From assembly GCA_943350395.1 (NCBI GenBank), contig CALRAD010000005.1:1-64000 (forward strand): a stretch of 64,000 bases of DNA, read 5' to 3'. A program made the position numbers and the translations under genes. Numbering within the stretch: position 1 is the first letter of the stretch; every line of letters begins with the position of its first letter. Positions 7,677 to 56,100 of the stretch are shown here, piece after piece. This stretch comes from Candidatus Peribacteria bacterium (GTDB lineage: Bacteria; Patescibacteriota; Gracilibacteria; Peribacterales; Peribacteraceae). The notes beneath the pieces were generated by a model. The model was not told where the DNA came from. It worked only from the letters and a program-made list of their open reading frames with translations, and did not search any database.

Positions 7677-8357
7677 TCAGAGAGAGAAGTCGCTTAGGTG
7701 CAGTGACGGACGATTCGTCGTATTCGTCTTCAATCGGTAGAGAATCTCGGCAACCTCCGCTCTCGTGATCGGCTGATTCAGACGCCTGATGCTCGTCGGG
7801 ATGGCGTTGGCTGAGGACAATGTCTGCACATAGAGTGCGTACCAACGAGGATCTTGACCATCGCCCTGTTCCATACTGATCCTGAGAACGCGAGTGATCA
7901 TCTTGGCGGCCTCGACGAAATTGACGGCGCGTGTCGGACGAAAGTACCCGTCGGGATACCCGTGGATGAGATCGCTCACTTTCGCGTTGCAGATATCGGA
8001 TGCGTACGCGTCGTCATCCTGAATATCGTTGAATACGGATGTTCCAGCCATAGAATTGACACAACTGTTGTCGCGAGACGGCATGAAAAATTCGTTCGTC
8101 ATGAGCTGCGAGAGCTCATTGCGGCGCATACGCTGATTCGGACCGTAGGAACCGTCGTCGTAGCCTTTCAAAATATTGCGACTCCGAAGATACTCGATCG
8201 CTTCGTACGAGGAGCTTGTCATCGGCACATCGGTAAACGGTTTCGTGGAGAACGTCGGGGAAAAATTGACGGCAGCAAACGCCACTTCGGCGGTAAGCCA
8301 GAATAGTAATGCCGCAACAGGCATAGAAACTTTGAGGAGTGAACGTGTGTCTTCCAT
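7677..8357 (-). CDS. Small secreted SLH-domain protein
   Basis: 226 residues. Starting at MEDTRSLLKV (8357), residues 1-28 form a signal peptide ending AEVAFA. Three S-layer homology repeats follow: about 41-90 (FTDVP...SYEAIEYLRSRNILKGYDDGSYGPNQRMRRNELSQLM split over the repeat), 109-160 (FNDI...GYPDGYFRPTRAVNFVEAAKM) and 168-210 (WYALYVQTL...ITRAEVAEIL). SLH repeats bind secondary polymers of the cell wall, so this nearly all-SLH protein should sit on the cell surface. The longer open frame to 8738 has no support and overlaps the divergent lipoprotein gene. It is convergent with the 401-residue gene. Confidence 0.8.
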   Translation of the reverse strand: MEDTRSLLKVSMPVAALLFWLTAEVAFAAVNFSPTFSTKPFTDVPMTSSSYEAIEYLRSRNILKGYDDGSYGPNQRMRRNELSQLMTNEFFMPSRDNSCVNSMAGTSVFNDIQDDDAYASDICNAKVSDLIHGYPDGYFRPTRAVNFVEAAKMITRVLRISMEQGDGQDPRWYALYVQTLSSANAIPTSIRRLNQPITRAEVAEILYRLKTNTTNRPSLHLSDFSL

Positions 8358-8502
8358 GAAGGGATGGGGAAGGGATAGAGACAGAAGAGAAGACGCAACT
8401 ATGCTCTTTTTCTTACAAAGAAAGCGATTTCTCCTCAGGCAAGGCTCGCCTTCCGAATTTTTGAGATGGAGTACAATGCTGTCTGTTTCTTTCCTCGACT
8501 GC

Positions 8503-24219: not shown

Positions 24220-25920
24220 TCATTCCCCGAACCTCGTCCCCTTGGAGACCGGACTACTTCCTTCGATCCATCGGAAATCTCCAGCCTGATCCGTCCACTG
24301 AATGCTTCCGAAATCAGATGGAGACCCTGCCTGATGCAGATCGATCTCCAGACTACCGCCGACTGACCCTTTTGGAATGAAGATCGTCGCAATCACCTCC
24401 ATGACGAGAGCTTTCTCGGATGGCAGTGCCGCTATCGAACTGAGATTCGGACAACTCAACATATTTTTTTCTTGATTCACACTACAAGGAAGAGAGAACT
24501 CGGAACCAGCTTTTCGAATGCTCCAATCTTTCACCGATGCATTGCCTGCGGAAAAAATCGAAAAAGTAAGCTGCTCGAGAGAAAGCGTCTTCCCCGGCAG
24601 TGCGCTGCCGCTGAAGGCGAAGGAACTGACGATTGTTCCGGTCCCCGACACAAGCGGAGCGGTGGCGGGAGATGTTCGGAAAACGCTCAGAATGCGCCCG
24701 AAGGCAGTCTGATGCCTGGGAAACGGCGCAACAGCCGGAACATTGACGGTTTCATGGGACATATCCGTGTAGTACGTGACGGAGAATGTGCGGACTTCGA
24801 GAAGTTGCTCCGACGATCCCCCTGTTTCTCTGCCGCGAATGTTCGCGCGAACCACAATGCGAACATTCTGATCCGCCGCAATGGCATAGCGATTGGGCTC
24901 GATGAACTGCGCCTCATAGGTCCTTAGATAATCGGCTGTATCACTCGTTGCTCGTCTTTGCAGCGTGGCGATGATTTCTCCGTTCGCTGCATTCACGAGT
25001 TCCAACGTGTCAACGGACGTGACTTCGGTTGCCAATTTCACCTGAGCCGAAATTATTTTTGCGGCTTCTCCGGCACTGCGCAGGGTCATATCGGCAATCG
25101 CATCCGATTTCTGTCCGACGATGAGGAAATGGCTGACTGAAGGAAGTGTAAAAAGAGACACGGGAACTGCGGAAGACGATGCGCTGCTGACTATGGAAGA
25201 TGAAGACGATGAGCTCGATGAACTGCTGCTCGTGCTGGACACCGACGATGCCATCGAATACTCGCCCGCCTCGGCGAGTCGAAGTTTCTGCAGCATTCCC
25301 TCGGACTCCGCCAAAAATGCGGCGGTGAGCCTTGCTGCAAGACCGCGCGTCAACGGCGTATCAAACCGAATCGTGATCGGAAGATCCACGTTTTTTGTAG
25401 CGGCAGCTTGATAGTACGGCTCCGGCCAATCCGCCGATTCAACAAACGGGATGTCGTAATCAAAGAGCAACGTCAGCATCTTCAGTGCCTCGGCATAGTT
25501 CACTGTGCGCTCAGGATGAAAAAAACCGTCGGGATTTCCTCGGACGACTCCTTTGGAAAAAGCAAAACAGACCGAAGGACTGAACCAATCGCCGATGCGA
25601 ACGTCGGGGAAACAGTAGGGATCGGTTGCTGCGCCTACTTGCGGGACATCAAGCTCCGGACGCATGTCCAATTCCGGATGACGACCGAGTGCGGCAATCG
25701 CCATCTTCAAAAATTCCGCACGGTTGATCTGTCTGCTATAGCCGAAGAGACCGCTTCCATACCCCTGAACAATGCCTTCGCGGCTAAGCATATTGATACC
25801 CGCGGCTTCTGGGTTATTTGCACGGACGTCCGGGTAAAGATTGCCCGGCTGGATTGTCAGTGCGAATGCAATCGTCGGAACCAGAACGAATGAAAGCAGT
25901 GGAAGAGTGAGTTTGTGCAT
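24220..25920 (-). CDS. SLH-domain surface protein
   Basis: 566 residues from MHKLTLPLLSF (25920); TATACT (25933-25928, minus) is seven bases upstream. A signal peptide ends about residue 20 (TIAFA). Three SLH repeats fill about 25-220 (LYPDVRANNPEAAGINMLSREGIVQGYG, FPDVRIGDWFSPSVCFAFSKGVVRGNPDGFFHPERTVNYAEAL in parts, and a weaker third). A Ser-rich linker at about 233-262 (runs of Ser) precedes an unrecognised beta-rich C-terminal domain of about 300 residues that should face outside. SLH at the N-terminus contrasts with the C-terminal SLH of the two giant proteins. It is convergent with pyrF. Confidence 0.85.
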   Translation of the reverse strand: MHKLTLPLLSFVLVPTIAFALTIQPGNLYPDVRANNPEAAGINMLSREGIVQGYGSGLFGYSRQINRAEFLKMAIAALGRHPELDMRPELDVPQVGAATDPYCFPDVRIGDWFSPSVCFAFSKGVVRGNPDGFFHPERTVNYAEALKMLTLLFDYDIPFVESADWPEPYYQAAATKNVDLPITIRFDTPLTRGLAARLTAAFLAESEGMLQKLRLAEAGEYSMASSVSSTSSSSSSSSSSSSIVSSASSSAVPVSLFTLPSVSHFLIVGQKSDAIADMTLRSAGEAAKIISAQVKLATEVTSVDTLELVNAANGEIIATLQRRATSDTADYLRTYEAQFIEPNRYAIAADQNVRIVVRANIRGRETGGSSEQLLEVRTFSVTYYTDMSHETVNVPAVAPFPRHQTAFGRILSVFRTSPATAPLVSGTGTIVSSFAFSGSALPGKTLSLEQLTFSIFSAGNASVKDWSIRKAGSEFSLPCSVNQEKNMLSCPNLSSIAALPSEKALVMEVIATIFIPKGSVGGSLEIDLHQAGSPSDFGSIQWTDQAGDFRWIEGSSPVSKGTRFGE

Positions 25921-25998
25921 ACCTGGAAGTATACAGGACATAGAAACATTTGGGTGGCTGTGCCATGAAGCGTGTTTGCCGCAGCAAACTCTGCTTCG

Positions 25999-26084
25999 TG
26001 GTGCCCAGGAGAGGACTTGAACCTCCATACCCTTGCGGGTACCAGCTCCTAAGGCTGGCGCGTCTGCCATTTCGCCACCTGGGC
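25999..26084 (-). tRNA. tRNA-Leu (TAG)
   Basis: 86 bases with a long variable arm typical of a class II tRNA. Acceptor GCCCAGG pairs with CCTGGGC, the anticodon loop is CTTAGGA (anticodon TAG), the variable arm is ACCCGCAAGGGT, the T loop is GGTTCAAGTCC, the discriminator is A and CCA is encoded. Confidence 0.96.
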
Positions 26085-26103
26085 ACGAGAGCATTGTACT
26101 GTG

Positions 26104-30489: not shown

Positions 30490-30548
30490 AGCCAAATTCC
30501 AAAAATCAAATTCCCATTGGATTTTGGTTTTTAGATTCTGGAATTTCG
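30490..30548. repeat. AT-rich inverted repeat at the dnaE 3' end
   Basis: CCAAATTCCAAAAATC faces GATTCTGGAATTTCG across a short centre, giving an imperfect inverted repeat. It encodes the last dozen or so residues of DnaE (ESKNQNPMGI). Related sequence (TTGGAATTTCG, TTTTTGGAATTTGG) occurs inside dnaE at about 30768-30796. Confidence 0.65.
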
Positions 30549-33500
30549 TATGTTCGGATCGCCTCTTCCACTCTCCTCTCAAGGAGAGGAGACATCGTAA
30601 TCGTAAGCCCGACCGGCAAAATCTTATCGCCGATTTTGAGCTGCACTTTTTCGTTCCCGGAAAACATTTCAAAAATCGCTTTGATGTCGAGGAGCAGCTG
30701 CCTTGGAGCGCGTTCGGGGAGCGTAATGGTATGAATAGAGATCGAAGGTTGATGGCTTGGACTAGGGCTTGGAATTTCGTTTTTGGAATTTGGTTTTTCG
30801 TCCAACGAATATTGAGCAAGACCGACTTTTGTAAGAGGTTCTGCAGTCTCCATGCCGCTCTGTATCCATTGTGTCAGAGGACCAGGGACCGCGTTTTTCG
30901 GAGAAAATTCCTCTATCGCTTGCGGAGAAATTTCCGATGCCACAACGTCCTCAGCGGTCACACCATCTTGGACATCCTGATTGCGTCTTCTGCCTCCGGC
31001 GCTCCACTGCTTCGCTTCTTCCTCGTTGAACATTCCCTCCTGCTTGGCCTTCGCGACCATGATTTCAAGAGATACCCGTTTCAGCGCTTCGGCTTTCAAT
31101 TGCGGCTGCCCCATGCGCATGTCGAGCGTGCCCGCGATCACCAAAATGGAATCCGGTTTCTCGAGGATGTCTTTGCACTGCGCATGCACGCGCGGGAACA
31201 GTGTCACTTCCATGCGACCGGTGGGATCTTCAATCGTCAAAATCGCCATCGTGTCGCCTTTCTTGGTATGAATGATCTTGGTTTGCTCGACGATGCCCGC
31301 AACGGTGATCTTCCTGTTCATATCGTCCCCCGTGAGACTGTCGATGAGGCGCGCTTTCTTGCTGATGTATTTCTTGAGACCCGCAAGCGGATGACTGGAA
31401 ACATACAGACCGAGCGTCTCTTTCTCCCACATCAGTTTCCGGTACGCGCTCGCCGGTTCTGTCGCATCAAATTCGATGCCGGCCCCCGTGCTCAGAGCCC
31501 CCAAAGATTCGAACATATCGCTCTGCGATGCGCTTTTGTCACCGGCGGATTTGCTGAATTCCGCGATCTTTTCATACTGCGACACAAGCATCGCACGTTC
31601 CCCAAGCGAATCGAATGCACCTGCTTTCGCGAGTGATTCGAGTAATTTTTTATTAAGAAGTTTACTCGGAACCCGAAGCGCGAGATCTTCGATGCTTGCA
31701 AAGGGCGTGCGGTCTTTTCCCGCCACCCCGTCTCTGATCGCAAGAATCTGACGGATGGAGCTTTCCCCAACGCCTTTGATGCCAAGTAAGCCAAAACGTA
31801 TTTTCCCATTTGGGAGAGATGTGAAATGAGCGAGCGACTCGTTGATGTCTGGCGGCAGCACGTCGATCCCCATTGCTCTCGATTCCTCGATCTCGATGGC
31901 GATGCGATCGGTGTCGCCATCCTCGCTGCTTAAGAGTGCCGCCATGAAGTCCGTCGGATAGTGCGCTTTCAGATACGCAGTTTCATAGGCGATACGCGCG
32001 TAGCAAGCACCGTGCGATTTGTTAAAACCGTAATTCGCAAACGGCGTGATGACGTCGTCAAACAGCGTCTTTGCAAGCTTCTCCGTATATTTCCTCGCAA
32101 CGGTGCCTCGGATGAATTTCTCTCGCTGAGCATCCAGCTCTCTCTTGATCTTCTTGCCGATGGCACGACGGAGAAGATCCGCTTCGCCGAGGGAAAATCC
32201 GGCGAATATTTTCGCCATTTCGAGAATCTGCTCCTGATAGATGCCAACGCCGTACGTCGGCTTCAGGATGGGCTCAAGATCTTTATGAAGATACGTCACT
32301 TCTTTCTCGCCATGCTTGCATTTGATGTAATCGGGGATCTTGTCCATCGGACCCGGTCGATAGAGAGATACCATGGCCGTGATATCGTCGACGGTCGTCG
32401 GCTTCAATTGTTTGAGGTACCTCCGCATGCCGCCGGATTCGAGCTGAAACACACCCGTTGTTTCTCCACGGGAGAGTAATTCAAATGTCTTTTTGTCATC
32501 CGTGGGAATGGTCGCAATATCGATCTTCACTCCATGCATGCGCTCGATGATCAAAAGCGCCGTCTGAATGATCGTGAGGTTCTTGAGTCCGAGGAAATCC
32601 ATCTTGAGAAGCCCAAGCGATTCGAGCGGCTTGGCATCGTACTGCGTGATGACGATGTTCTCGTCTTTCGGAGCGCGTTGCAACGCCGTATAGCGCACAG
32701 CAGGCTCCGGTGTAATCACGACGCCGCACGCGTGCACGGACACATGTCGAGCCTTCCCCTCGAGCTTGAGTGCAATGTCCAGAATTTTCCGGTACGTGTC
32801 GTTCCCTTTGATACCGTCTAAAAGTTCGTCCGTGAGAAGCGCATCCTTCAGTTCGGTACCCGGTCTGTCGGAGATGAGTTTTGCAAGCGCATTCATTTCC
32901 GCAAACGACACACCGAAGGCTCTGCCGACATCTTTCACCGCGGCGCGGGCGGCAAGTGTTCCGAATGTGCAAATTTGAATCACTCGATCGGCTCCGTACT
33001 TCTGGCGCACGTACTCCAGCACTTCATCGCGACGAGTATCGGCAAAATCGATATCGATATCGGGCATGCTGATGCGTTCCGGATTCAGAAAGCGTTCGAA
33101 GAGGAGTCCGTGCTCCAACGGATCGAGGGTTGTGATATCGAGCACGTAACTCACGATCGATCCCGCCGCAGAACCGCGCCCCGGCCCCACGGTGATGCCT
33201 CTGCGCTTCGCTTCAGCGATAAAGTCAGCGACGATCAGGAAGTACCCCGAAAATCCCATCTTATTGATCACCTCGATCTCATAGCTCAAGCGATCATTGA
33301 TTTCTTTCTCTCGCTCAGGATTCTTCTTGAGAATATGCGAGTAGCGCTTGGAAAGACCTGCCTCGCATTGCTCGCGCAAAAGCGACTCTTCGGTCTGTCC
33401 TTTTTCCACAGGAAAACTTGGGATTTTGTACTGTCCAAAAGGAACTGTGACATTGCAGCGCTCCGCAATGACACGCGTATTCTCGAGCGCCTCCGGAACG

Positions 33501-34279
33501 TGTGAAAATGCAGCCTGCATTTCCTCAAATGGTCGCATCGACATGTCGCTATCTCGCATGGTGAAGCGTCCCGTATCCGACACATTGGAATTTTTCTGAA
33601 TGCAGAGAAGAACATCGTGGGCTTCCGCATCTTCGAGTCTGCAGTAGTGACTGTTACAAGTCGCGACGAGCGGCACATCGTATTCTTTCGCCGCACGGAT
33701 CAACTGCTGGTTCACCTCGGACTGCCCGGGGACATTCGGCAGATCCATCAGTTCAAAGTAGAAATTTTCTTTGCCGAAAAACGATCGGTACTGATCGATC
33801 AGCAATTTCAATCTCTCCTCATCCTCCGCCATCGCCGCCTGAGGGATCGCTCCGCTGATCGGACCCGAGAGTGCAATCAACCCTTTGCCATACTGTTTCA
33901 GAAGTTCGCTGTCCACGCGTGGTTTGTAGTACATGCCCTCGAGCGCCGCTTTCGTCGCAAGCTCCAGAAGATTGTGGTATCCCTCTTCGCTCTGAGCGAG
34001 GAGGACGAGAGGATAACGACGCGTATCGACTCCCGTTTCCTTGTCGAAACGCGTACGAGAGGCAACGTACGTCTCGAGACCGAGAATGGGCTTCAAGTCG
34101 TGTTCTTTGCATGCTTTATAAAACTCGATGAGTCCATAGGTGTATCCCTTGTCGGCAAGTCCGACCGAAGACTGACCCAGTTCTTTTGCTCTCAGGACAA
34201 TTTCTTCCGGAGTCGGAACCGCCTCGAGAAGAGAGAACGTTGAGTGACAATGGAGGTGAACGAATTCCGAAGATTTCAT
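30506..34279 (-). CDS. dnaE: DNA polymerase III alpha subunit (DnaE)
   Basis: Replicative polymerase catalytic subunit, 1257 residues. PHP domain at the N-terminus with intact FVHLHCHSTFSLLE. Polymerase active site RISMPDIDIDFADTRRDEVLEYV at about 400, then GRGSAAGSIVSYVL nearby and an FQLESGGMRRYLKQLKP segment. The helix-hairpin-helix and OB regions follow (KITVAGIVEQTKIIHTKKGDTMAILTIEDPTGRMEVTLF). The tail is longer than usual; a stretch EKPNSKNEIPSPSPS and the terminal ESKNQNPMGI look like translated dispersed repeat. Downstream of the secreted-protein operon gene at 34296 in opposite gene context order on the same strand; tsaC follows. Confidence 0.95.
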   Translation of the reverse strand: MKSSEFVHLHCHSTFSLLEAVPTPEEIVLRAKELGQSSVGLADKGYTYGLIEFYKACKEHDLKPILGLETYVASRTRFDKETGVDTRRYPLVLLAQSEEGYHNLLELATKAALEGMYYKPRVDSELLKQYGKGLIALSGPISGAIPQAAMAEDEERLKLLIDQYRSFFGKENFYFELMDLPNVPGQSEVNQQLIRAAKEYDVPLVATCNSHYCRLEDAEAHDVLLCIQKNSNVSDTGRFTMRDSDMSMRPFEEMQAAFSHVPEALENTRVIAERCNVTVPFGQYKIPSFPVEKGQTEESLLREQCEAGLSKRYSHILKKNPEREKEINDRLSYEIEVINKMGFSGYFLIVADFIAEAKRRGITVGPGRGSAAGSIVSYVLDITTLDPLEHGLLFERFLNPERISMPDIDIDFADTRRDEVLEYVRQKYGADRVIQICTFGTLAARAAVKDVGRAFGVSFAEMNALAKLISDRPGTELKDALLTDELLDGIKGNDTYRKILDIALKLEGKARHVSVHACGVVITPEPAVRYTALQRAPKDENIVITQYDAKPLESLGLLKMDFLGLKNLTIIQTALLIIERMHGVKIDIATIPTDDKKTFELLSRGETTGVFQLESGGMRRYLKQLKPTTVDDITAMVSLYRPGPMDKIPDYIKCKHGEKEVTYLHKDLEPILKPTYGVGIYQEQILEMAKIFAGFSLGEADLLRRAIGKKIKRELDAQREKFIRGTVARKYTEKLAKTLFDDVITPFANYGFNKSHGACYARIAYETAYLKAHYPTDFMAALLSSEDGDTDRIAIEIEESRAMGIDVLPPDINESLAHFTSLPNGKIRFGLLGIKGVGESSIRQILAIRDGVAGKDRTPFASIEDLALRVPSKLLNKKLLESLAKAGAFDSLGERAMLVSQYEKIAEFSKSAGDKSASQSDMFESLGALSTGAGIEFDATEPASAYRKLMWEKETLGLYVSSHPLAGLKKYISKKARLIDSLTGDDMNRKITVAGIVEQTKIIHTKKGDTMAILTIEDPTGRMEVTLFPRVHAQCKDILEKPDSILVIAGTLDMRMGQPQLKAEALKRVSLEIMVAKAKQEGMFNEEEAKQWSAGGRRRNQDVQDGVTAEDVVASEISPQAIEEFSPKNAVPGPLTQWIQSGMETAEPLTKVGLAQYSLDEKPNSKNEIPSPSPSHQPSISIHTITLPERAPRQLLLDIKAIFEMFSGNEKVQLKIGDKILPVGLTITMSPLLERRVEEAIRTYEIPESKNQNPMGI

Positions 34280-34295: not shown

Positions 34296-35972
34296 TCAGA
34301 AACTCGGTGCGCTGCTCGAAGAAGATGGCGGCGGGCGGACTTCTCCACAACGGATTTCTTCGGGATCACCCGGAGGACTCTGGTTCCCGTTGCAAAAATC
34401 CGCGCTCTGGAACCCATTCCTGCAAAAACATTTGTCCGCCAACTGTTCATCCGTATATTTCCCTGAGACATAAGGGTGACAGTACGGATTAAATGACCTT
34501 TTCGCGATGGATTCGAGAAGCGTATTGCAGTGGCCGTCGACGCAGGAACGACGCAGGAAATAGGCGACGCTCGGAATGTACTCGTTCGGGAGAAATCCTT
34601 CCGTGACATCCGAGAGAGACTTCACCGCATCTTCGAGAGGCTTGACTGCCTCGAGTGTTCGTTCGTAGGAATCGCGGAAGATTGCATCGGTCGTACCCAT
34701 GTGTCTCTCACTGTCCTTCATGATACCTCGAAGAGCTCTCGTTGCCTGAAACTTATACATGAACGCAGCCTGCTGTTCTTCGTCAGCCGGAGCAAGCTCC
34801 TTCGGGAGCGGACGATCTGCACCCTTCTCGCCTTTCCGCTCGTCGAATGCCCTGCTCAGAACGAGCGCATTCGGCAACGTAAAGAAGAAATCGTAGGACG
34901 GCCGAAACAGTGCACCGATCGGAAGAACCCGACCGACCGGGGGAGTGTACGTGAAATCGCCGCTGTCCAGTTTCCGAAGATTTGGAGTTCGAAAATAATC
35001 CGGAAATGCGCTGAGTACCGCATGAAACGACGCAGCATTCGGAGGTGCTTGACCCTCAGGCTCGGGTGATGGCGGAAGCAGACAGCCGACTTCCGTCGCA
35101 TGCGGAGGCGCAGTGGCAGAATTCTCCAGGGGTTCCGGAGACGTTGCTCCCGTAATCGCGGCAATTGCCGCTTCGATATTCCAAAGCGCTTCCCTGACAA
35201 CGGTGTAGATATCGGACGCCAAAGTATTGGATTGGTTCAAAAAATCTCTTAAGTCGTCGGCTTCGATCTTGAGAGCTGGGGGAAGATTAGGGCGGATCTG
35301 CAAAAGCACACCGGAAGCACAACCATACGTCTTGATATCCGGCGGAGCATCGGGGTCCGGCGGAGGATCCTCATCCGGTTGCGGCGGAAGATATCCAATA
35401 AAATGCGGGCTGTAATCTGTCGTGTACGCACACATCGGCGCATCTCGATGAGCACTGTCCAGTTTCGGTTCAGCCATCGAATCGAAGTCCGATGCGCTCT
35501 CGAACGGGTAATGATAACGCAGAATATTGCCGGAGAATGAGGAGTCAACGGAACCGCGGAGGAACATCTTGTACGCATCGAGCGTGAAAGCGTGCACGGT
35601 GCGAAGAAGCATCGACGCCTTGATGTTGCAGGATTGTGTCGCCACCTCCATTGCATTTTGAATGGCGTTCAGTTTGTACTGAAACTGAAGTCGATCACTT
35701 TCGAAGCACAGAGTCCTTTCACGCAGAAACTGGGATTCGAGACCGAGATCCATTGCGATGCTACGCTCCTGCCGCACCATCGAAAGGTTGTTGGCAACTT
35801 CTTGGATATTCGCTTCGCTGTCGCACGGACGCGGAGGCAGGGGAAGTCCCTTGGCTACGAGGACACCCATGTCCGCACGCTCCAAGGCATTCTGCACCCA
35901 TGGAGACAGTGCAGTGGCTGCAGCGGTTTGCGGGAGGAGAACGAGGCCGATCAGGATAAGAAATTTCTTCAT
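34296..35972 (-). CDS. Unknown secreted protein, fifth gene of the secreted operon
   Basis: 558 residues, no family recognised. Signal peptide 1-19 (FLILIGLVLLPQTAAAT). The mature part has paired Cys residues, a Pro/Asp-rich linker (DEDPPPDPDAPPD at about 205-218), a second Pro/Glu-rich linker near 300, a Cys cluster at about 490-540 (CVDGHCNTLL, CHPY, CFCRNGF, CNGN) and a Ser-rich end. No membrane segment, so it is probably exported and disulfide-linked. It follows the 607-residue gene by three bases and ends 17 bases before dnaE begins. Confidence 0.7.
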   Translation of the reverse strand: MKKFLILIGLVLLPQTAAATALSPWVQNALERADMGVLVAKGLPLPPRPCDSEANIQEVANNLSMVRQERSIAMDLGLESQFLRERTLCFESDRLQFQYKLNAIQNAMEVATQSCNIKASMLLRTVHAFTLDAYKMFLRGSVDSSFSGNILRYHYPFESASDFDSMAEPKLDSAHRDAPMCAYTTDYSPHFIGYLPPQPDEDPPPDPDAPPDIKTYGCASGVLLQIRPNLPPALKIEADDLRDFLNQSNTLASDIYTVVREALWNIEAAIAAITGATSPEPLENSATAPPHATEVGCLLPPSPEPEGQAPPNAASFHAVLSAFPDYFRTPNLRKLDSGDFTYTPPVGRVLPIGALFRPSYDFFFTLPNALVLSRAFDERKGEKGADRPLPKELAPADEEQQAAFMYKFQATRALRGIMKDSERHMGTTDAIFRDSYERTLEAVKPLEDAVKSLSDVTEGFLPNEYIPSVAYFLRRSCVDGHCNTLLESIAKRSFNPYCHPYVSGKYTDEQLADKCFCRNGFQSADFCNGNQSPPGDPEEIRCGEVRPPPSSSSSAPSF

Positions 35973-35975
35973 GCG

Positions 35976-37799
35976 TCAGGGGCCGAAGGTTTTAAAAGGC
36001 CCAGTCCACGGACAAGCGGTTTTCGTGATGGGGGCGCGCTTCAGTTCCAAAAGAAGATCCGCCATCGTACGGATGAATTTCGCCATGATCGCAAAGAGTT
36101 TCTGTTCAACAGTGATCGTCTGATCGTGCGACGCTCTGTGGCCGATTTCGATTGCTCGAGAGAGGAAATCCGCCTGATTGATCGAAATTTCCGTCGCATT
36201 ATCAAGAATCAGCTTCATGGTGCCGGCTCCGTCTTGGGTCGGCGCTTTCACGAGCGTTTCGGTGCGGAAAACACAGTCACCGAACATCGGTCGCGGCGCA
36301 TCGCCATTCTTCAAGCAGTATTCACGCTCGAAATCCTGCACGAGCAGATGGCCCATGTACGAAGGGAGAATAAACGAAGGGTCATGTCCGGTCTCCGTAT
36401 ACAAACCGAGCTGCGGATCGGCGCGGATACAAGAAAGATAGGGTGACGTCGCCTCGTTTGTCACGACGGTGTTGCGATTCGGCACAAGCGTATGCCCGCT
36501 CATCGACTGCGCCAGACAGCGACCGATGTAACAGGCATGCGTGGTGATGTCATCTTTGTATTGCACTTGTGATCCGGAAGAACACAGCTTCGTCATATCG
36601 GCAGGCGTCAATTCCGGATTGAGATGCTCGGCATTCTCCGGATCGACGAGAGGAGTCCCGTCATCCAGATACAAATTTTTGAGACCACCGCAAATATCCG
36701 GACCCTGAAGCGTTTCCTTCGTCGTGACAGAACATTCAATCAGCGAGATCGCTCCGGTATTGGTATTGATGCATGTGTCAGGCGGAACGGGGACTTTACG
36801 ACATAAATACCCTTGTTTTCCGACCGTACGACTGCAAAGTGGTGAATGAATGTAGGTGCCTTCACGAGACACCGTTCCTGTGTACTCGAAAGGATACGCA
36901 AGCACCGATCCGCTCGACCCTCTACGATTGATCGGATACTGATCAGCCCTCTTGATATCGAAACGCGTGAAGTGAGGAGGGTAAATCCAGTGAATGCCGA
37001 GATCATCTTTCCGTGCCCAAAACGCAACGTTCTTTGTCCTCTTCAGTGCGGGTGTCGAAAATTCCCCCACCATTGCCCCGCTGCCGATGATGCCGAGTGT
37101 TGATGCGATATCTCCCAGTGCCGTTTCAACTGCCGGACTTAATCCTGAAAATCTCGGATCTTGTTCGTCGATGTCACGGAAATATCCGAAATGAAAACGT
37201 AGAATGACTTTCTCCAATTCTTCCTGACCGAGTCCTGATAGAGCTGTATCCAAGGCAAGCAGCTCCGCATCTGCCGTGCCATCCCACGGAATGATGCCAA
37301 CACCCGTTCCGGACCACACGCGCTTGAGAAGTAAGCTGAGTGTCCCGAGCGCCACCGGACGATGAGTTTCGTCCGCAATGGACAGCTCCGAGCCGTTTGC
37401 CGCCATGAGAAGATCATCTCCAAGACTTTCGGCGTCTTTTTCTGCCGTGATGAGCGAGAGAATACTCGTTCGCAAATCAAGACAGCCGCTGTCCGAGGCG
37501 CCCAATACGAAGTTGATCTCCTGACCCGAGGTGTTCAATTTCGCCTGACACAATCCGTCATCTTCTGCGGTCCAGAGAATACCGAGAACGGCGTTCTTGA
37601 TGTCGGCATAAGAAAGATAAATGCCGTTCTTGCCCCAGCCCTGCATTTCATTGATGATAAAATCCATGAGCTTGTTACTCGGATAGGCGCTTTCGCCGGT
37701 TTTCTGTAGGTCATCAAAATGCAGATCGAACACGGACGCATGACCGACTTCAGGAAAGAAGATGAGACACGCCAGGAGGAGAGAGAGAAGGCGCTTCAT
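35976..37799 (-). CDS. Unknown secreted protein, fourth gene of the secreted operon
   Basis: 607 residues, not recognised. Signal peptide 1-22 (LLSLLLACLIFFPEVGHAS). The mature protein has many Cys, concentrated at about 320-470 (PLCSRTVGKQGYLCRK, CINTNTGAISLIECS, DICGG, HACYIGRCLAQS), and a helical C-terminus (EQKLFAIMAKFIRTMADLLLELKRA). The motif NEMQGW near residue 50 also occurs in the 1076-residue first gene product. It starts by ATGA overlap with the preceding gene (37799-37796), so translation is coupled. Confidence 0.7.
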   Translation of the reverse strand: MKRLLSLLLACLIFFPEVGHASVFDLHFDDLQKTGESAYPSNKLMDFIINEMQGWGKNGIYLSYADIKNAVLGILWTAEDDGLCQAKLNTSGQEINFVLGASDSGCLDLRTSILSLITAEKDAESLGDDLLMAANGSELSIADETHRPVALGTLSLLLKRVWSGTGVGIIPWDGTADAELLALDTALSGLGQEELEKVILRFHFGYFRDIDEQDPRFSGLSPAVETALGDIASTLGIIGSGAMVGEFSTPALKRTKNVAFWARKDDLGIHWIYPPHFTRFDIKRADQYPINRRGSSGSVLAYPFEYTGTVSREGTYIHSPLCSRTVGKQGYLCRKVPVPPDTCINTNTGAISLIECSVTTKETLQGPDICGGLKNLYLDDGTPLVDPENAEHLNPELTPADMTKLCSSGSQVQYKDDITTHACYIGRCLAQSMSGHTLVPNRNTVVTNEATSPYLSCIRADPQLGLYTETGHDPSFILPSYMGHLLVQDFEREYCLKNGDAPRPMFGDCVFRTETLVKAPTQDGAGTMKLILDNATEISINQADFLSRAIEIGHRASHDQTITVEQKLFAIMAKFIRTMADLLLELKRAPITKTACPWTGPFKTFGP

Positions 37800-38737
37800 T
37801 CGGGTCGGAGGGAATCATCGGGGTCATGGAGCGAGGTCAGCGCATCCCAAATTTTCGGCATGCAACTCGTCGTATCAGCGAGCAAACCGAGTTCGTTTCG
37901 AAGATCCAAAGACGCACGCTGAAAACACACCAGTTGCTTTACATACGCATAGTTCAATTCGAAAGATCGAAGTGTGTGGAATGTCCGAAGAACAGCGAGT
38001 CTTGCACGCTCTTTTTCGCTCTGGATACGGACGCGAAAAGCAGTCAGGCGCGTCGTAAGAACTTCGTCCATCGTCCCCACTCTGCAAAAACCTCCGCACG
38101 TTGAATCGTTCGTCGGAATCGTGGAGCACGATGTATCGGCTGTTTGCTTTTCACAAAGATCAAAAGAGCTGCAGCAAAACATGAAAGATGGGTCATCAAG
38201 ATCCCGATTGGATGCCACCATATCATCGGCAGTTTGGTCGAATTCGGACAACTTGCACTCATACTCGCGCACGAATTCTGCGACCACCGAATTGAAGGAC
38301 GTGAATGTGACGGGAAGAAGTTTCGGGTCTCCCATCGCAGGCCTGTAGTACCAGCCCGGCATTTCCTCCGCAAGCTTTTTGAGCTCACCGATGCCGCCTT
38401 CGACCCCTGGAGTGCAGGGCCACGATGAAGGAGCTTTCAGAAACTCTTCACGCTCCCCAACGACTCCCGATATGCGCTTCCGGAAGAGATCTGTTGTTTC
38501 CCTCAAGGTCTTCAGGTTACCAAAAATGGTTCCCGTTGAGGTACACGCACGCGGGTCGGCTCCCGACTCGAAATATACGGAAACCGGTGGAGGCAAGCCG
38601 AGAATCGCTCCACGGAGAAATCGAGATGATCCCGCAACGATGCTAAGGACGAAGAGAAGAACGATAAGCATCTGGTGCCTGTGCCAGAACGAGAGCCACT
38701 GACGTTTGATCCCGATGATGGAACGAGGCATGTTCAA
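37796..38737 (-). CDS. Unknown membrane-anchored protein, third gene of the secreted operon
   Basis: 313 residues, not recognised. A single membrane segment at about 21-40 (HQMLIVLLFVLSIVAGSS) after a basic N-terminus, so the rest is external. A Cys group at about 190-225 (FMFCCSSFDLCEKQTADTSCS, CGGFC) and a helical tail (ARLAVLRTFHTLRSFELNYAYVKQLVCF). Four-base overlaps with both neighbours in the operon. Confidence 0.7.
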   Translation of the reverse strand: MNMPRSIIGIKRQWLSFWHRHQMLIVLLFVLSIVAGSSRFLRGAILGLPPPVSVYFESGADPRACTSTGTIFGNLKTLRETTDLFRKRISGVVGEREEFLKAPSSWPCTPGVEGGIGELKKLAEEMPGWYYRPAMGDPKLLPVTFTSFNSVVAEFVREYECKLSEFDQTADDMVASNRDLDDPSFMFCCSSFDLCEKQTADTSCSTIPTNDSTCGGFCRVGTMDEVLTTRLTAFRVRIQSEKERARLAVLRTFHTLRSFELNYAYVKQLVCFQRASLDLRNELGLLADTTSCMPKIWDALTSLHDPDDSLRPE

Positions 38738-39489
38738 AATCCGTCAAGGGGAACGATGATCTTCGACGTATCCGGTCGATCGCACTGACCGATGAAGCAG
38801 GGGATTTCATGCAATTTGCCAAGCATGTTGACCATGTCGCGGATTGGAGTGAGCACACGATCCGGAAAATCTCCCTGCAACCAATCGATGATTCCCGCTG
38901 TCTGAAGCATACTTCGGTACCCGCTGTCATAGGCAAATGCGAGTTTCAACACCGCCTTCTCCGCACTCAGACTTGACTCCGACATTCCGCTGCATTCGGC
39001 CTCCAGACCCATCCGATCGGTCGGAAGAAACCCCGTATCGACGAAGCTGCAGGAAGGATAACTGTCGATTGTTTGCTCGGCACATCCGAGCTGTTTGATT
39101 GTGAGTGATGTACCGGCATTCACGTCGAAAGACTGCTTCATTGCAAGACAGATCGCATTCGTTCTGCAACGGAGAATGCGATAACTTTCAACCGCCGGCC
39201 ACACAAGTTCGGATGTGAGCCGTGCTTTTGTTTCCATAATGCCGGTACCCGTCTGTGACGCAAGTCCACCGGTCAGCACTTCGAAATCTCCTTCCTCGTT
39301 TTCCCTCGCGCCAAAGATACGCGAACGATACTCATCGTGAATGATGCTCATCCTGTCGATCACATGCCGACGGCAATCGTCGGGGGTGGTGGCATCGGCG
39401 CCGCGCACAGATTCCGGATTCGACCACTGAAGCAATACCAAAGTCATCAGGAGGATGCCGGTGCCGAGAAAGAAGAATCGTACTTTCAT
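38734..39489 (-). CDS. Unknown exported or anchored protein, second gene of the secreted operon
   Basis: 251 residues, not recognised. The N-terminal hydrophobic segment (4-22, RFFFLGTGILLMTLVLLQW) is a signal peptide or anchor. Conserved-looking Cys pairs: CRTNAICLAM, CAEQTIDSYPSC, and IPCFIGQC near the end. Helical overall. Its start overlaps the 1076-residue gene by ATGA (39489-39486) and its end overlaps the next gene likewise. Confidence 0.7.
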   Translation of the reverse strand: MKVRFFFLGTGILLMTLVLLQWSNPESVRGADATTPDDCRRHVIDRMSIIHDEYRSRIFGARENEEGDFEVLTGGLASQTGTGIMETKARLTSELVWPAVESYRILRCRTNAICLAMKQSFDVNAGTSLTIKQLGCAEQTIDSYPSCSFVDTGFLPTDRMGLEAECSGMSESSLSAEKAVLKLAFAYDSGYRSMLQTAGIIDWLQGDFPDRVLTPIRDMVNMLGKLHEIPCFIGQCDRPDTSKIIVPLDGF

Positions 39490-42400
39490 AGAGAAATATT
39501 GGGGCGAAGATCGATTTCAATCGGCGGAGTGAGCCAAGGGAAGAGGCGTTCCAATACCGGAAGCGTTGCATTCTCATACGGATTTGTCGATGCACTGCCA
39601 GGGAGTGTCGTGAATCTCAGGGTATCCGTGATATCCGTAAAGTCACTCTCCTCCACCGGAAGGAATGTCGCCCACTTCGCCGTCGTCGTTCTTTGACGCG
39701 GCAAAAACATACAAACGACATCTTCTTTGCATTTAGGAACTACCGGTAGCGGAAATTGATTTCGGACACGCAGCGTTCTGCCTGCGATATCCTCCGTGCG
39801 TTCCGGAAGCCACCGCGAATACAGCCTTGCAACACGCTCTTTGAGATCATTTTCAACGTGGACAATTCTCTCGGGATCGCCTTTGTCGGGATTCGACGGG
39901 ATGAGGACACTCTTGATGAAGCGGCAGTACGAACCGCGCATATTATTGCGATCGAGACTGAAGTTCGTTCCTTCATCGGCAACGATGCCGTCATTCTCTT
40001 CCTCTTCCCACTGCGACTGAAATTCCTGATCCCCGATCTGTGTGCCGTCGATCATGACGCGGAATTTCATAAGCGTATCGATTGCGGCGGCGAGATCCAT
40101 CGATGGTGGCAGATCGAGCACTCTCTCAGCAGGAAGATTCACGGTTGGTGCATCGAATTCATCGAAAACCGCTGCATCGGGAAGAGTCGGCAGTGACGGA
40201 AAATCTCCAGGAGATTCCGGTTTCGTGCCGAGCAGTGGAGGATGCGGTAACTTGATTTTCACCTGGATCGGCCACAACACGGGGATTTTGAATTCGCCTC
40301 TGGCCGGAGCGAGGAACGAGAAGTCATAGAGCTGATCTTTCGGCGGGTTACCGACCAAGCTTCGAAGGTCATCCGGCGGCACATATCCCGCATTTCGCGG
40401 AGACCGAAGCGGTGCGTCCCCCCACCATTTGTCGAGGAGCGAATATACGGCAATCGAGTACCGCATATTGGAACACCACTGCAATTGGCACTGATCTGCT
40501 TGCAGCATCGAATTTTGAATATGTCTCCAAACGCGTTTCAGTCTCAGACGCAAAACATTTTGCATTGCTGCCTCTTTAAGCTTCTGCGTGTTGTCCCGAT
40601 ACCAATTCGCCATGAATCGGTCGATTTGCTTGAGAGGGGAAAGGAACCCAATCAACTCCTTGTCGAGCGCATTCCGGAGCTTGCGCTGGCTCAGGATTGC
40701 ACCGCTGTACTCTTGCAACTTCGCAAGAATCGGATCGGCGTCGCCCGAGAAGGAAGCGCGGGGAGGAATTGCGGCGAGCGCATCCGCATCCTCGAGCTGC
40801 TTCCAGTGCTTCCATTCGAAAATTAATTTGTCGATCTCTCCCTTCGATGCAAGCGGAACGAGAATGGGAATGCGCACTTCGCTTACAGGCATGATGTAAC
40901 TTCTCTTGAACGTCGACAGCACGTTCCCGATGTCTTCGGGTCCTGCACGAAGCGTCAGCTCCACGGTGCCGTTTGGTTTCGACACCCGCGCCTGCACGTA
41001 CTGGAACAGAGGATTCTCATCATCGAGTCCCGCAATGAAACGAGCTGGCATGATGAGGCGCACCGTCGGAGCGCGCGTAAGCACGAGGAGCGCTTTCTCC
41101 TGGGCTTCCCAGTAGGCACTCAAACTCCGATGATCGGCATCATCGAACATATCGGTTCGAATATTGTCACGCGTCGTTTTGCTTGCGCGCTGCTTCGCCT
41201 CGACGATCGATCCGACCACTCCTGTGATATCCCCGGGGTCGTCGAAATCTTTCTGCAATTCTTTCAGCCTTTTAATGTCGATGACGGAGAGATTCGTATC
41301 GGGATCGAGTATCCACGGATCTGCCGCATTTCTGGAGGGATGAGGAGGGTCAATCGGAGGTGGAGGAGTGGTAGGGTCAGGGCGAACATTCTCTTTCTGC
41401 TTGTGACCGACAAGATCCGGCCAGCCCTGCATCTCATTCGTCAGAACAAGCTCGCACTGCTCGTCGTTGTCCTTTCCTCCACCGTCACCTCTGCCCGCCG
41501 TCACCGTCGTCTGCGGATCGAAATCTGAGAAGTCCCTGTTGGTTTCCTTATAGTATTCATAGCACTCTCCGCGAAGCGTCCCGAGTGCGCCCGTTCCAAA
41601 CCGCACATGCACTCCAGGTTGCATGAACCCGCCTGCATAGTGACGATAAATCGAGCTCGGAAGCGAGAGATGCTCACCCTGACGCTTCACATTCAGAAGC
41701 CCGTACGGACCTAAAATCGTAATAACGGTCGTATAACTGCACTCCGTAACTTTATTGTAGTGAACCGGAAGCCAATCTGTACGACAGGTATCGTTTCTCG
41801 GGATCTCCGCTGCAGCGGGAATTTCAGGAACTCCTTCCGGAGTATCAATCATCGTTGTCTCCATGATCGCATCAATAAAACCATACCGAGCGCTCGTACC
41901 CGTGCATATGAACGTATTGATAGGATCGAAACAATATCGTTTTCTCGGCCGAGTCGGACACTTGTCGTGAGGAATCCCTGATACCGATTCGCAATCGCAC
42001 ACCGATTGGACGGGGATATGGATTCCGGGAAGCTGCGACATCGCACGCCACGCCGAAGCAAGTTGTCTGCAATGCTTCGGTGTTGCGTTGTCCCAGCGAA
42101 TGCACCAGCCGTACGGATTGATCTGTATTTTCCCATTCCCGTCGACGAGCCTCACAGAACCGCCGTCAAAATCAACGCAGGGGTCGGGGCCGGCACACGG
42201 AACGTTCTTGAAGTGAATGTCTTTATGAAGAATTTTATCGAGATCCTCGTCATACATCGTCTGAGCCTCCGTATGAGGGCCGGGGGGAACCGCAAGCAAA
42301 TCGCCTGAACTCGTGATGTACATGTCGCAAGCGGATGCAAATCCGAATGCCGTATCAGGAAACTGAAACCCTCCACGCGTACCGACTCCCGTCGTCGAAG

Positions 42401-42716
42401 AACCGAGGGGATTGAAATTATCACGACCGGGAATGGCAATCGGATCTTCCGTGCCATCCGGAAACAACGCATAAATCTCAGGAATCGGCACATCTCCTCC
42501 AACGATCGTGCCACCAAGAACGCGAGCATTCGTGCCGCTCGCCCATCCTCCGCACTGCACCGTAGCAATATTATTTTTCACCTCTTCTACACCAGCCTGA
42601 AAATCTGTGAAATTTTTCGGCACGCTGATCTTCGGACGAAATTCGTCGGCACGTACGGCGGTCGCAAAGGCGAATGTGACAAACGCCAGAGAAGTGAGCG
42701 CGATCCGCTGAAGCAT
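39486..42716 (-). CDS. Large unknown secreted protein, first gene of the secreted operon
   Basis: 1076 residues, no family recognised. Signal peptide 1-23 ending AVRA|DEF. Residues about 50-450 are Cys-rich and beta-like (VQCGGWASGTN, CAGPDPCVDFDGGSVRLVDG, WCIRWD, SVCDCESV, RYCFDP, TFICTGTS). A Pro-rich linker (RPDPTTPPPPIDPPHPS) lies near 460, and 500-1076 is largely helical (e.g. DKELIGFLSPLKQIDRFMANWY) with basic patches. No later membrane segment. Its promoter is TACAAT (42733-42728, minus), 11 bases before the ATG, divergent from ssb. The size, export signals and tight overlaps suggest an extracellular assembly built with the next four products; the function is unknown. Confidence 0.72.
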   Translation of the reverse strand: MLQRIALTSLAFVTFAFATAVRADEFRPKISVPKNFTDFQAGVEEVKNNIATVQCGGWASGTNARVLGGTIVGGDVPIPEIYALFPDGTEDPIAIPGRDNFNPLGSSTTGVGTRGGFQFPDTAFGFASACDMYITSSGDLLAVPPGPHTEAQTMYDEDLDKILHKDIHFKNVPCAGPDPCVDFDGGSVRLVDGNGKIQINPYGWCIRWDNATPKHCRQLASAWRAMSQLPGIHIPVQSVCDCESVSGIPHDKCPTRPRKRYCFDPINTFICTGTSARYGFIDAIMETTMIDTPEGVPEIPAAAEIPRNDTCRTDWLPVHYNKVTECSYTTVITILGPYGLLNVKRQGEHLSLPSSIYRHYAGGFMQPGVHVRFGTGALGTLRGECYEYYKETNRDFSDFDPQTTVTAGRGDGGGKDNDEQCELVLTNEMQGWPDLVGHKQKENVRPDPTTPPPPIDPPHPSRNAADPWILDPDTNLSVIDIKRLKELQKDFDDPGDITGVVGSIVEAKQRASKTTRDNIRTDMFDDADHRSLSAYWEAQEKALLVLTRAPTVRLIMPARFIAGLDDENPLFQYVQARVSKPNGTVELTLRAGPEDIGNVLSTFKRSYIMPVSEVRIPILVPLASKGEIDKLIFEWKHWKQLEDADALAAIPPRASFSGDADPILAKLQEYSGAILSQRKLRNALDKELIGFLSPLKQIDRFMANWYRDNTQKLKEAAMQNVLRLRLKRVWRHIQNSMLQADQCQLQWCSNMRYSIAVYSLLDKWWGDAPLRSPRNAGYVPPDDLRSLVGNPPKDQLYDFSFLAPARGEFKIPVLWPIQVKIKLPHPPLLGTKPESPGDFPSLPTLPDAAVFDEFDAPTVNLPAERVLDLPPSMDLAAAIDTLMKFRVMIDGTQIGDQEFQSQWEEEENDGIVADEGTNFSLDRNNMRGSYCRFIKSVLIPSNPDKGDPERIVHVENDLKERVARLYSRWLPERTEDIAGRTLRVRNQFPLPVVPKCKEDVVCMFLPRQRTTTAKWATFLPVEESDFTDITDTLRFTTLPGSASTNPYENATLPVLERLFPWLTPPIEIDLRPNISL

Positions 42717-42886
42717 GATTGTCGTTCATTGTACTGCAACACATGATTTTTCGCGCGCGAACGGAATAAAAAAAGTATCATAAAAAAATATAATTATTTT
42801 CCATCAACTCTTTTCTCTTGCCCGACAAAAAGCATGGGTGTACGTTCGTTCACGAGACCTCCTCTACTTCCATTCCCCCCTCAGAG

Positions 42887-43762
42887 ATGTTCTCTCTCAA
42901 CAGAGTCGAAATCATCGGCTATCAGACGCAACCAGTTGTCACCCGCCAGACGCCGGGAGGTGCCAGCGTGACGGATTTAAACGTCGTCGTACCCTACGCC
43001 TTCCAGTCGAACAAAGGCGACATGATTCAAGGCAAGAGCTTCCACACTGTCACGATCTGGGGAAGTATGGCGGACGTTGCCGCCCAGTACCTTCGCCCGG
43101 GTTCCCAAGTGTACCTCTCCGGACGATTGCAAACAGACAACTGGGACGATGAAAAAACGAAGGAGAAAAGATCGAAAACCAAAATCGTCGCCATGGACAT
43201 GATCATGCTCGACCCCAAAGACGGACAGGGTGAAGCTCCGGCAAGTGCTGCTTCCCTTGTGAATTACCTAAACCGTGCGGAAGTGATCGGCAATGTCACG
43301 CGCGAACCAGAGATGCGCACGACTACCGGCGGACAGAGCGTCCTCACGATCGGAGTGGCCACAAACGAACGCTGGAAAGACAAAGCCACAGGCGAAACGA
43401 AAGAACGTGCCGAGTTCCACAACATCGTGATCTGGGGCGATCTCGCCAAAGCTGTGCAGTCATCTGTGAAGAAAGGTCAGCGTCTCTTCGCCTCGGGCCG
43501 CGTGCAAACGCGCACCTGGGAAACGAAAGAAGGCCAAAAGCGTGCAACAACTGAGATCATCGCGGACCACGTCACAATGCTTGGACTCAAGAACGCCGAT
43601 GCAATGAGCGCGGTATCAAACGATGCAACGCGTGCAGGAATGCCCGCTCCCGTACGCTCTGAGCAAAACGAGCATGCAGAACCCGCCCTTGTTGCCGCGT
43701 CGAGTTCCGTGCCCGAAATAAAGTATGAATCCGAAATCAAAGCGGAAGATTTGCCGTTTTAA
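42887..43762 (+). CDS. ssb: Single-stranded DNA-binding protein with two OB folds
   Basis: 291 residues from MFSLNRVEIIGYQTQP (42887). Two SSB-type OB domains lie in one chain: about 1-115 (TIWGSMADVAAQYLRPGSQVYLSGRLQT) and 125-230 (NRAEVIGNVTREPEMRTTTGGQSVLTIGVATNE, then IVIWGDLAKAVQSSVKKGQRLFASGRVQT). The acidic tip EDLPF at the C-terminus is the usual partner-binding tail. The two-domain form, known from Deinococcus-Thermus, should work as a dimer. The frame is open from 42818, but that region lacks homology. TATAAT at 42789-42794 is a possible -10. A strong terminator follows. Confidence 0.9.
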   Translation: MFSLNRVEIIGYQTQPVVTRQTPGGASVTDLNVVVPYAFQSNKGDMIQGKSFHTVTIWGSMADVAAQYLRPGSQVYLSGRLQTDNWDDEKTKEKRSKTKIVAMDMIMLDPKDGQGEAPASAASLVNYLNRAEVIGNVTREPEMRTTTGGQSVLTIGVATNERWKDKATGETKERAEFHNIVIWGDLAKAVQSSVKKGQRLFASGRVQTRTWETKEGQKRATTEIIADHVTMLGLKNADAMSAVSNDATRAGMPAPVRSEQNEHAEPALVAASSSVPEIKYESEIKAEDLPF

Positions 43763-53134: not shown

Positions 53135-56100
53135 TCAGCGTATGTAATCCAGTTCCATCAACTTTGAAAAGATTTTCGCGACTTCTGCGCGGTTGATGGA
53201 AGCATTCGGTCGAAATCTACCTGTGGCATTTCCTTTTTTGTCAGTATCACCGCTCACAATTCCGAGTGCGGCAGCCAAATTAATTGCGTTCGCATACTCA
53301 GATGTATCAGGGACATCATTGAAATGAACATCTTTCAGGATGATCGGAACAGCGTCGCTGATTACGGTTCCAGATGCCGTCTTCAGCGTGCCGCTGCCTG
53401 TGACCACTCCTGAGCCGCTGAGAATTTTACCGGAGTCTGATACCACTGCTCCTGATGCGGAGAGCGTTCCTGTGCCACTCTGTTGCGAGATAGAAACAGG
53501 TTTTGTGATTTGCAATACCTCTACAAGGGTTTGTATAACGGCACCGCGTAAAGCGGGAATCGTAATATTCAGCTTTGGGTCGAACACAGAAATATGCTTG
53601 GTCTCAGCCATAGCAATATAGTCAGCGGACCAGTGGCCATGTGCAAAACGATTTTTGGGAGACGCGATTCCGATACTCGGCGTACGAGCTGCTTCGAATG
53701 CCATCTTCGCCAATTCTGCATAGGTGATGGGATTGTTCGGTCCAAATTCTCCTGTGAGTTCGCCCCGCGCATCCCGGTAACCTGATGCAATCCCAGATTG
53801 GATGAGCGTTGCGACGGATGCTGCGTACCAATCTTTCACAGGCACATCCCTAAAGACAACGTCCTTACCCGAAATCTTCACTTTCAGGAAAGTTCGAGCA
53901 CTCCTGACCATTCCCTTCGTAAGTACGATAGCAGGTGGCAAATCCGTCTTTTTCCACTCCACTCTTCCACTCGCATCGCGCGTGATTGTGAACAGAGTTC
54001 TGCGTCCGCCTCCACCACCACGGCTGCCACCAGATGTCGATGTGCTGGTCGTTGTAGTCGTCGTAGTCGAGGTCGTGCCTCCTCCGATCGGAGCAACGAC
54101 CGCAAATGTCGAGAAGTGTGATGTGCTTGCCGTGAGGACTTTGTTCACCGTATCAACGGTTGTTGAAAGAGAATCCCAGTTCCCCGTTGAATCATTCCAT
54201 ACGCTGACCACCAAATTACTGGCAGACACTCCAGCTGCAGTGAGATCTGCATCGGCATATGGTAAGGTGACTGTCGCATTCGCCCCAAGCGTGGAAATAG
54301 CGACTCCGTCAGAATCCACCGGTGTGATTTCAACAGCTGATGTGCCGATGACTTGTGATGTCGTCGTCTGGCTTACGAATGCAGTGGTCGCATTACTCGT
54401 AATCGTTGCCGCATTCGAATCGGTGCTGGAAAGTGCATTCTGCGGAAGATTCACGGAAAAATTCGAACCGATGGAAGCATTCTTTACGATGCCTCCGGCA
54501 GTCGGTGTAATCTGTGTGGATTGCGGTTCTTGTCTGGTGTATCCCGAAATCGCCGTGAGCGTCAGGTTGGCCGTTCCCCCTGCAGCAACCGATGTCTCGG
54601 AAGACGTATAGCCATCGGAACGCGCGAAGACAGACCATGTTCCCGCCGTTACATTCAACACATAACTTCCTGAGCTCACATCGGTAAACACATAGGTGCC
54701 ATCGCTGCTCCGGCCAACCACTTTGGTCGAAAGAGTGACCGGTGTACCGCTCAAGGTAACACGTCCTGTTATCGTCTGATCCGTCGCTGTCATCGTGCGA
54801 TTTCCACCCGTACTGAGCGCTGCCCCATTCACGGTGATCTCCGAAGGAGCAGCACTGTCCACACATCCCGCTTTGCCCGCGCTGATGCGATAGGTGCCGT
54901 TGGGCAGTTTGATAGTATAAGAGCCGGTACTGGATGCGCTGGCAATCGTGACACGACCGTTCGTGGAATCCGCAAATGCAACACCCACACCGTTCACACA
55001 TGTCGTCGAACTACTGCTGATAAGCCCCGTCACATTGTACGTGGTTGCAGGGGTGAACGAAGCAGTGGTAGTTGAATCGCCCGTAATGACGACAGATTGT
55101 GAGCCGATTTGACCCAGACGAGGGCTATTGGCCTTGAGTGTATACGTTCCGGCCGGAAGATTGATTGAGTACACACCATCCGTATTTACGTTTGTTCCAT
55201 TGCCTTGTCCACTACTATCACGGGCTTCAATAAATGCGTCCGTGACTCCGGTGATCGTGACAGACAGAGTGCCGGCTTGACCAAGGGTAAGATTTTTCCC
55301 CGTCAATGAATCCCCGCCGGCGACAACAACGCTTGTGAGCTTTGTTGTGGGGCCGGAGCCCGGTACGAATCCTTCAATGGTATACGTCCCCGCCTGCACC
55401 TTGAGTGTATAGACGCCTCCGGAAGCCGTGACGGCCTGATTGCCTCCACTAGTGCCGTAGGCATTCACGAATGCTCCCACGACACCGGTACCGTTCTGTT
55501 TTACAGTACCGGTAATGCTGCCGAAATTTGCTGCGCTTGCCTGCAGATTCTGCGTGGCACTCGTCGTGGTGATCGTGACTGCTGTGGTCGGGAGTTGTCC
55601 ATATCCCGGAGCGAATGCACTGACATCCCATGTGCCGGCTTCAACATAGACGGTGTACGATCCTGCTGAGTTCGCAGGTGCGGAGACGAATCGTCCGCCG
55701 AACGATCCGCCGGAATCTCGAAGCTGCGCACGGACGTTGGCATACGGAATCGGATTGCCGGACTCGTCCATTACTTTGCCGGAAATCGTGAGACGACCTT
55801 GTGAGATAATCAAACGAAGATTTACGACAGATGTCCCCCCGGCATTCGTAATCAAGACGCCGTTCACATACACATCGGCCGTTGCATTATTATCGGCATT
55901 GCTGACATTGGTTTTCACTTCAACGGGAATCGGTGCCGATGGCGGCATGCCCGGCATGAATGCCTGAAGCGTGTAATTACCAGTTGCGGAAGGAATCGAG
56001 AACACGCCGCCGCTTCCGGATTGTGCTTGTCCTTCGCTTCCCTGCGCACTGGTTTGGGTACGGGCAACCACGAACGCATTGGAAATTCCGGTCCCTTCAT

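Follow-up and report, generated by a model that had tools for sequence, protein, structure and literature searches.

Large Cys-rich extracellular proteins with possible roles in attachment and with variation between strains have been reported for genomes of Peribacteria, in the parts of the published account considered here (PMC4736985), and giant surface proteins, which have integrin-type domains and reach 4,163 aa, have been proposed to serve host recognition and attachment in Vampirococcus lugosii, likewise in the parts of that account considered here (PMC8080830). The general theme of large Cys-rich or giant surface proteins is already known. The way in which most CPR bacteria recognize their partners and keep hold of them is still an open question; the lineages are uncultured. 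Here, we analyzed an operon of five genes (P1-P5) in a window, i.e. the whole stretch of 64,000 nucleotides at the start of contig CALRAD010000005.1 from a Candidatus Peribacteria bacterium. The family of the window is called f1 here, and f9 is another family within the same class. The reading we prefer, which we give about even chances, is that the products of the operon form an extracellular complex that is associated with the wall, linked by disulfides and fitted with display modules that can be exchanged; its probable purpose is contact with other cells or particles.

All five genes are located on the minus strand: P1 (39486..42716) encodes a secreted protein of 1076 aa with 20 Cys, P2 (38734..39489) a secreted protein of 251 aa with 8 Cys, P3 (37796..38737) a protein with a single N-terminal anchor and 313 aa when read from TTG or 311 aa from the ATG at 38731, P4 (35976..37799) a secreted protein of 607 aa with 13 conserved Cys, and P5 (34296..35972) a secreted protein of 558 aa with 8 conserved Cys. 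The genes are genuine and lie together in a compact operon, and the coordinates and lengths given for them in the preliminary description were confirmed, that of P3 with the TTG start. For the junctions, three ATGA overlaps and one 3-base gap had been described. Two ATGA overlaps, at P1/P2 and P3/P4, and the 3-base gap at P4/P5 were found; the P2/P3 junction is a TTGA overlap instead, or a 2-base gap if P3 starts at ATG. Upstream of P1, the tandem-domain ssb (42845..43762, plus strand) is a divergent neighbor conserved across f1, and the intergenic stretch separating P1 from the divergent ssb (42717..42844) offers the only room for the main operon promoter. Scans for promoters and terminators gave no excess over shuffled sequences, and the same holds for a promoter-like signal in this intergenic region. 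On the other side, dnaE (30506..34279, minus strand) is the conserved downstream neighbor of P5; it starts 16 bases past the P5 stop and is possibly co-transcribed with the operon. No tandem repeats were found in the operon.

A hydropathy scan revealed an N-terminal hydrophobic signal in each of P1, P2, P4 and P5 and one hydrophobic segment in P3 (residues ~20-41), which reads as an anchor, and nothing downstream of the N-terminal segment reached a transmembrane-level score in P1-P5. The earlier view that each product bears a signal peptide or a single anchor and no further membrane segments was thereby upheld. Several P3 homologues carry a lipobox-like LSAC, LASC or TASC, so that P3 is probably a membrane-tethered subunit. 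Conserved elements were also found in P1, with an N-terminal QCGGW...PGR...PLG segment and a core with a long helical region (~residues 525-850), and in P5, which has the C-terminal motif YFLRRSC..CN..L..C.PY.

Cys conservation spans about 40 genomes and all five proteins. Alignment columns in which 80% or more of the homologues have Cys number 13 in P1, 8 in P2, 5 in P3, 13 in P4 and 8 in P5 (47 in total); in P2, 8/8 Cys are invariant in 36 homologues, and the 5 Cys of P3, an odd number, are invariant as well. The odd numbers of conserved Cys in P1, P3 and P4 would leave room for inter-chain disulfides, which is suggestive only. No VKOR was found in the genome of the window as a disulfide-forming partner. 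DsbB was considered for the same role and rejected, as it occurs in only 6 of 15 tested genomes and its presence does not track the operon. The hexapeptide NEMQGW, on which a link between P1 and P4 had been built, is indeed present in both proteins of the window; in a 90% identical relative (L021) it occurs in P1 only, and in four other relatives checked it occurs in neither. With a motif that is not conserved and profiles of P1 and P4 that are not homologous, a shared domain was ruled out, and the match is a coincidence.

By simple sequence search, P1 was found in 57 of the 68 genomes of f1, own genome included, and in 0 of 47 genomes outside f1; iterated profiles recovered all P2 and nearly all P3-P5. 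The order ssb (divergent)-P1-P2-P3-P4-P5-dnaE is present in nearly every f1 locus long enough to judge, the neighbors of the operon in f1 being ssb, murB, gltX and dnaE. The five-gene order is kept in more than 50 loci, i.e. the genes co-occur in related genomes. At L051 (~11845), ssb lies on the strand of the operon, unlike in other loci, as if locally inverted. Empty sites with ssb beside dnaE and the operon absent were detected in G006, G009 and G043, and in G025 with one small extra gene. For G049, G056 and G057 (L121, L122 and L123), the contig ends ~0.25-0.8 kb from ssb on the side where P1 is expected, which was perhaps caused by strain variation in the operon breaking the assembly. In G053, P4 and P2 were found by profile, and G016 and G034 are incomplete assemblies among the f1 genomes without a P1 match. 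Early matches of the P1 profile to ORFs antisense to ssb were discarded, since they most likely arose from ORFs extended too far and from the way fragments were handled, and the profiles were rebuilt with fragthresh 0.

Trees of the operon (P1-P5) and of the flanking genes (ssb, dnaE, murB-like and gltX), calculated with FastTree and rooted at the midpoint, have 24 of 43 splits in common, compared with a mean of 0.23 and a maximum of 2 by chance (200 label shuffles), and 21 of the well supported splits agree between them. Distances in the operon are ~3.7 times those of the flanking genes. Parsimony places the presence of the operon at the ancestral state with two inferred losses. The tree agreement together with the ancestral presence points to a vertically inherited, fast-changing family trait and not to a recent acquisition. 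The stable inheritance between ssb and dnaE that had been suggested thus holds within f1; the location itself is specific to f1, because in f9 the operon is followed downstream by genes whose N-terminal sequences read as murD and often murJ.

The operon of f9 was revealed by the P2 profile, which matched 11 genomes of this family at E ~1e-5. Its loci encode a giant protein followed by proteins of ~260, ~260, ~650 and ~450 aa. In profile-profile comparison of f9 with f1, proteins at the same position scored 97.7% (P1), 93.4% (P2), 88.7% (P3), 74.6% (P5) and 2.5% (P4), and all 20 mismatched pairs scored at most 8%. P4 of f9 is not detectably homologous to P4 of f1 and was equated with it solely on the grounds of position, length and Cys content. 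In P1, the match spans the core and includes the common motifs PTvRLilP, IPvxVPl, C.NxRF and DFSxLK, so the core described above is common to the window's P1 and the giant SLH/FG-GAP protein of f9. This giant has a length of ~3,700-4,300 aa, and the one scanned (L128) has C-terminal SLH (5.1e-24) and FG-GAP (1.5e-7) domains. As judged from these sequence comparisons, f9 carries the same five-gene operon in the same order as f1. Among 380 genomes of the phylum, the P5 profile matched none beyond f1, and among 288 of the class, the P4 profile likewise matched none beyond f1; since the P2 profile reveals the f9 operon, these negatives mean only that the divergence is too great for the P4 and P5 profiles. 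On present data (f1 and f9), the operon is a class-level feature, and its earlier designation as generally CPR-specific was dropped. The fixed order, the co-inheritance and the recurrence in f9 argue strongly that the five products act as a single unit outside the cytoplasm; to this extent the machine proposed in the preliminary description was retained, and for the proteins of the window neither of the outcomes named there as refuting it was observed. A fibre or an attachment or secretion structure is a putative form of it.

In G041, another f1 genome without a match in the simple P1 search, a diverged operon was found with the order P1-P2-P3-P4-P5-murD-small ORF-dnaE. P4, located between P3 and P5 (L087 12008-19501, L137 1-5376), is expanded here to over 2,600 aa; it contains over 250 Cys and carries DUF4215 repeats. 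DUF4215 was found in one P5 homologue too, and Pfam detected none in P1-P5 of the window. Elsewhere in the window, a 557-residue protein (18170-19840, minus strand) carries DUF4215 (Myxococcus-type Cys-rich) repeats and resembles proteins of very high Cys content in G006 and G041.

The surroundings in f9 and G041 bear on the main rival to a contact complex, namely that the proteins form an extracytoplasmic scaffold assembling or remodelling peptidoglycan or the S-layer, without cell contact. The operon adjoins murD in f9 and in G041, with murJ also near in f9, SLH domains that bind the wall lie at the end of P1 in f9, P3 acts as a membrane anchor, and envelope assembly could just as well be the task of a Cys-rich exported operon that evolves fast. 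However, most operons of f1 adjoin neither murD nor murJ, the operon was lost at least twice while its neighbors were kept, and evolution ~3.7 times faster than that of the flanking genes, combined with module swaps, is unusual for core wall machinery. Weighing both sides, we regard a role in envelope biogenesis as unlikely, if still the best placed of the alternatives.

In Pfam and NCBIfam, P1-P5 matched no family at E <= 1 except for chance matches far below cut-off, including no Tra/VirB family of conjugation or type IV secretion systems. The phage and defence libraries PHROGs and PADLOC gave no match for P1-P5 either, PDB profile searches with P1-P5 and with the alignment of the zincin-like domain described below yielded nothing meaningful, and no relative of P1 was found in viral contigs. 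For P1-P5 of the window, the earlier statement that no described family is recognised was therefore sustained; it does not extend to the relatives, which carry a zincin-like domain and S-layer anchors. Structure models were calculated for P1 and P4 following the suggestion made with the preliminary description; with shallow alignments from few close relatives, their mean pLDDT was 36, and a fold search with the P1 model (pLDDT 36) gave nothing significant, a result with no bearing on novelty.

F-type conjugation systems typically have operons that encode exported proteins with multiple Cys. The operon resembles these in this respect, with homology assessed by Pfam and NCBIfam only, and a T2SSE-type ATPase is encoded in the genome of the window, so the proteins could belong to a machine for secretion, conjugation or pilus formation (type II secretion or type IV pilus) whose ATPase is encoded elsewhere. 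Against this stand the lack of any match of P1-P5 in Pfam, NCBIfam, PHROGs or PDB profiles, the persistence of the ATPase in G006, G043 and G025, all of which are without the operon, and the finding, in line with what had been noted before, that neither an ATPase nor a channel adjoins the operon in any locus inspected, f1 or f9. We consider such a machine improbable. G009 is without the operon and without any T2SSE-type ATPase.

The zincin-like domain was first seen by profile comparison as shared between P4 and three P1 homologues. It comprises ~165 residues with the pattern HELvHAqq.C...CCa.E..AY..qC and has nine invariant columns, seven of which are Cys. Among the loci, it is located in P4 of 33 and in P1 of four and is absent in 14 including the window; its insert site in the P4 homologues lies between window residues 391 and 402. 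The best match of Peptidase_M76 (Pfam) reached 5.6e-5, one copy scoring 16.6 bits against a curated cut-off of 25.2, and no PDB sequence matched the insert. In P4 of L055, L052, L065, L041 and L049, HExxH is lost and the invariant Cys are kept, which suggests a structural or binding role after catalysis was lost. No HExxH is present in P1-P5 of the window. On the midpoint-rooted flank tree, the zincin state changed at least seven times, counted irrespective of direction. Gain, absence and placement in either P4 or P1 characterize the domain as an optional, movable module, and its occurrence in both P4 and P1 supports the idea that these two proteins work in the same place. In G006, where the operon was lost, a stand-alone, unlinked protein of 1,076 residues with 66 Cys (L086 9229-12456) bears a zincin-like domain. 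A secreted proteolytic complex in which the zincin digests or processes protein and the other subunits are carriers is slightly less probable still than a secretion machine, for although HExxH and the downstream CCxxE are intact in 28/33 P4-resident and 4/4 P1-resident copies and 8/30 copies weakly resemble Peptidase_M76, the domain is missing from 14 loci including the window, five copies have lost the motif and kept the Cys, and no zincin copy was found elsewhere in the window's genome in a search without an internal positive control.

Surface proteins are numerous in the window. Four SLH proteins are encoded in it (10554-14675, 53138-58945, 24223-26094, 7680-8738 (-)), two of which are large and contain Ig-like, FG-GAP or CarboxypepD_reg domains. 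With several SLH proteins encoded, the surface of the organism is of the S-layer type.

Returning to the contact complex, we propose that P1-P5 would assemble outside the membrane as one exported, disulfide-stabilised complex, presumably at the cell surface in the window's organism as well. P3 would be the anchor to the cytoplasmic membrane by its single transmembrane segment, or as a lipoprotein in some relatives, and P1 the large outward-facing body giving reach and wall contact. In f9, the giant P1 would be fixed to the S-layer or wall via its SLH domains; Pfam detected neither SLH nor FG-GAP in P1 of the window, and the anchoring role is thus transferred to it from f9 by core homology only. 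P2 and P5 may be Cys-linked structural partners, and P4, sometimes P1, the putative display subunit taking lineage-specific modules: most relatives have the zincin-like domain, another has Cys-rich DUF4215 repeats, and the lineage of the window has none. Such a complex would most likely mediate contact with other cells or particles, and surface proteolysis would be expected only in lineages with an intact HExxH, the version of the window being presumably non-proteolytic.

A bolder version, which we advance tentatively and with somewhat less than even chances, is a class-wide five-protein disulfide-linked surface machine, undescribed so far, that is armed per lineage with a zincin, Cys-rich repeats or an FG-GAP/SLH giant arm for recognition or processing of partner cells. 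With the operon come five new families of proteins and specific targets for imaging, expression and tagging. Also, its presence, its empty site and its module type can be used as a marker to correlate with host association in metagenomes.

In the literature searched, the 2016 supplement aside, neither the five-gene operon nor its conservation in two families, the movable zincin or the SLH giant form was found. Judged by the absent sequence matches, the operon appears new in kind, with a remote kinship to a known system possible until good structures exist. Compared with SLH proteins, of which the window also encodes several, P1 of f9 is SLH-ended likewise, whereas P1 of the window is without a detectable SLH domain and P2-P5 match no S-layer family. 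The insert in P4 or P1 of the relatives resembles the zincins Peptidase M76 (Atp23) and DUF6782 by the motif HELxHA..C...CC.xE and by weak Pfam similarity; unlike them, it is exported and Cys-rich, has lost the motif in some copies and is absent from the window. The giants of Vampirococcus lugosii are CPR surface proteins, as the operon products presumably are, and the two are likened here by description only, the parts of that account considered here describing no five-gene operon (PMC8080830). In Ca. Peribacter riflensis, the Cys-rich proteins have a mean Cys content of 7.2% and a mean length of 1,655 aa, in contrast to 1.9-3.5% Cys in the five proteins of the window, and the five-gene operon is not described in the parts of that account considered here, its supplement aside (PMC4736985). 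The Cys-rich proteins of that organism are otherwise like the operon products in belonging to the same lineage, in being large and exported with many Cys and in their suspected role in attachment, and they have DUF4215-like repeats, as do some members of the operon (PMC4736985).
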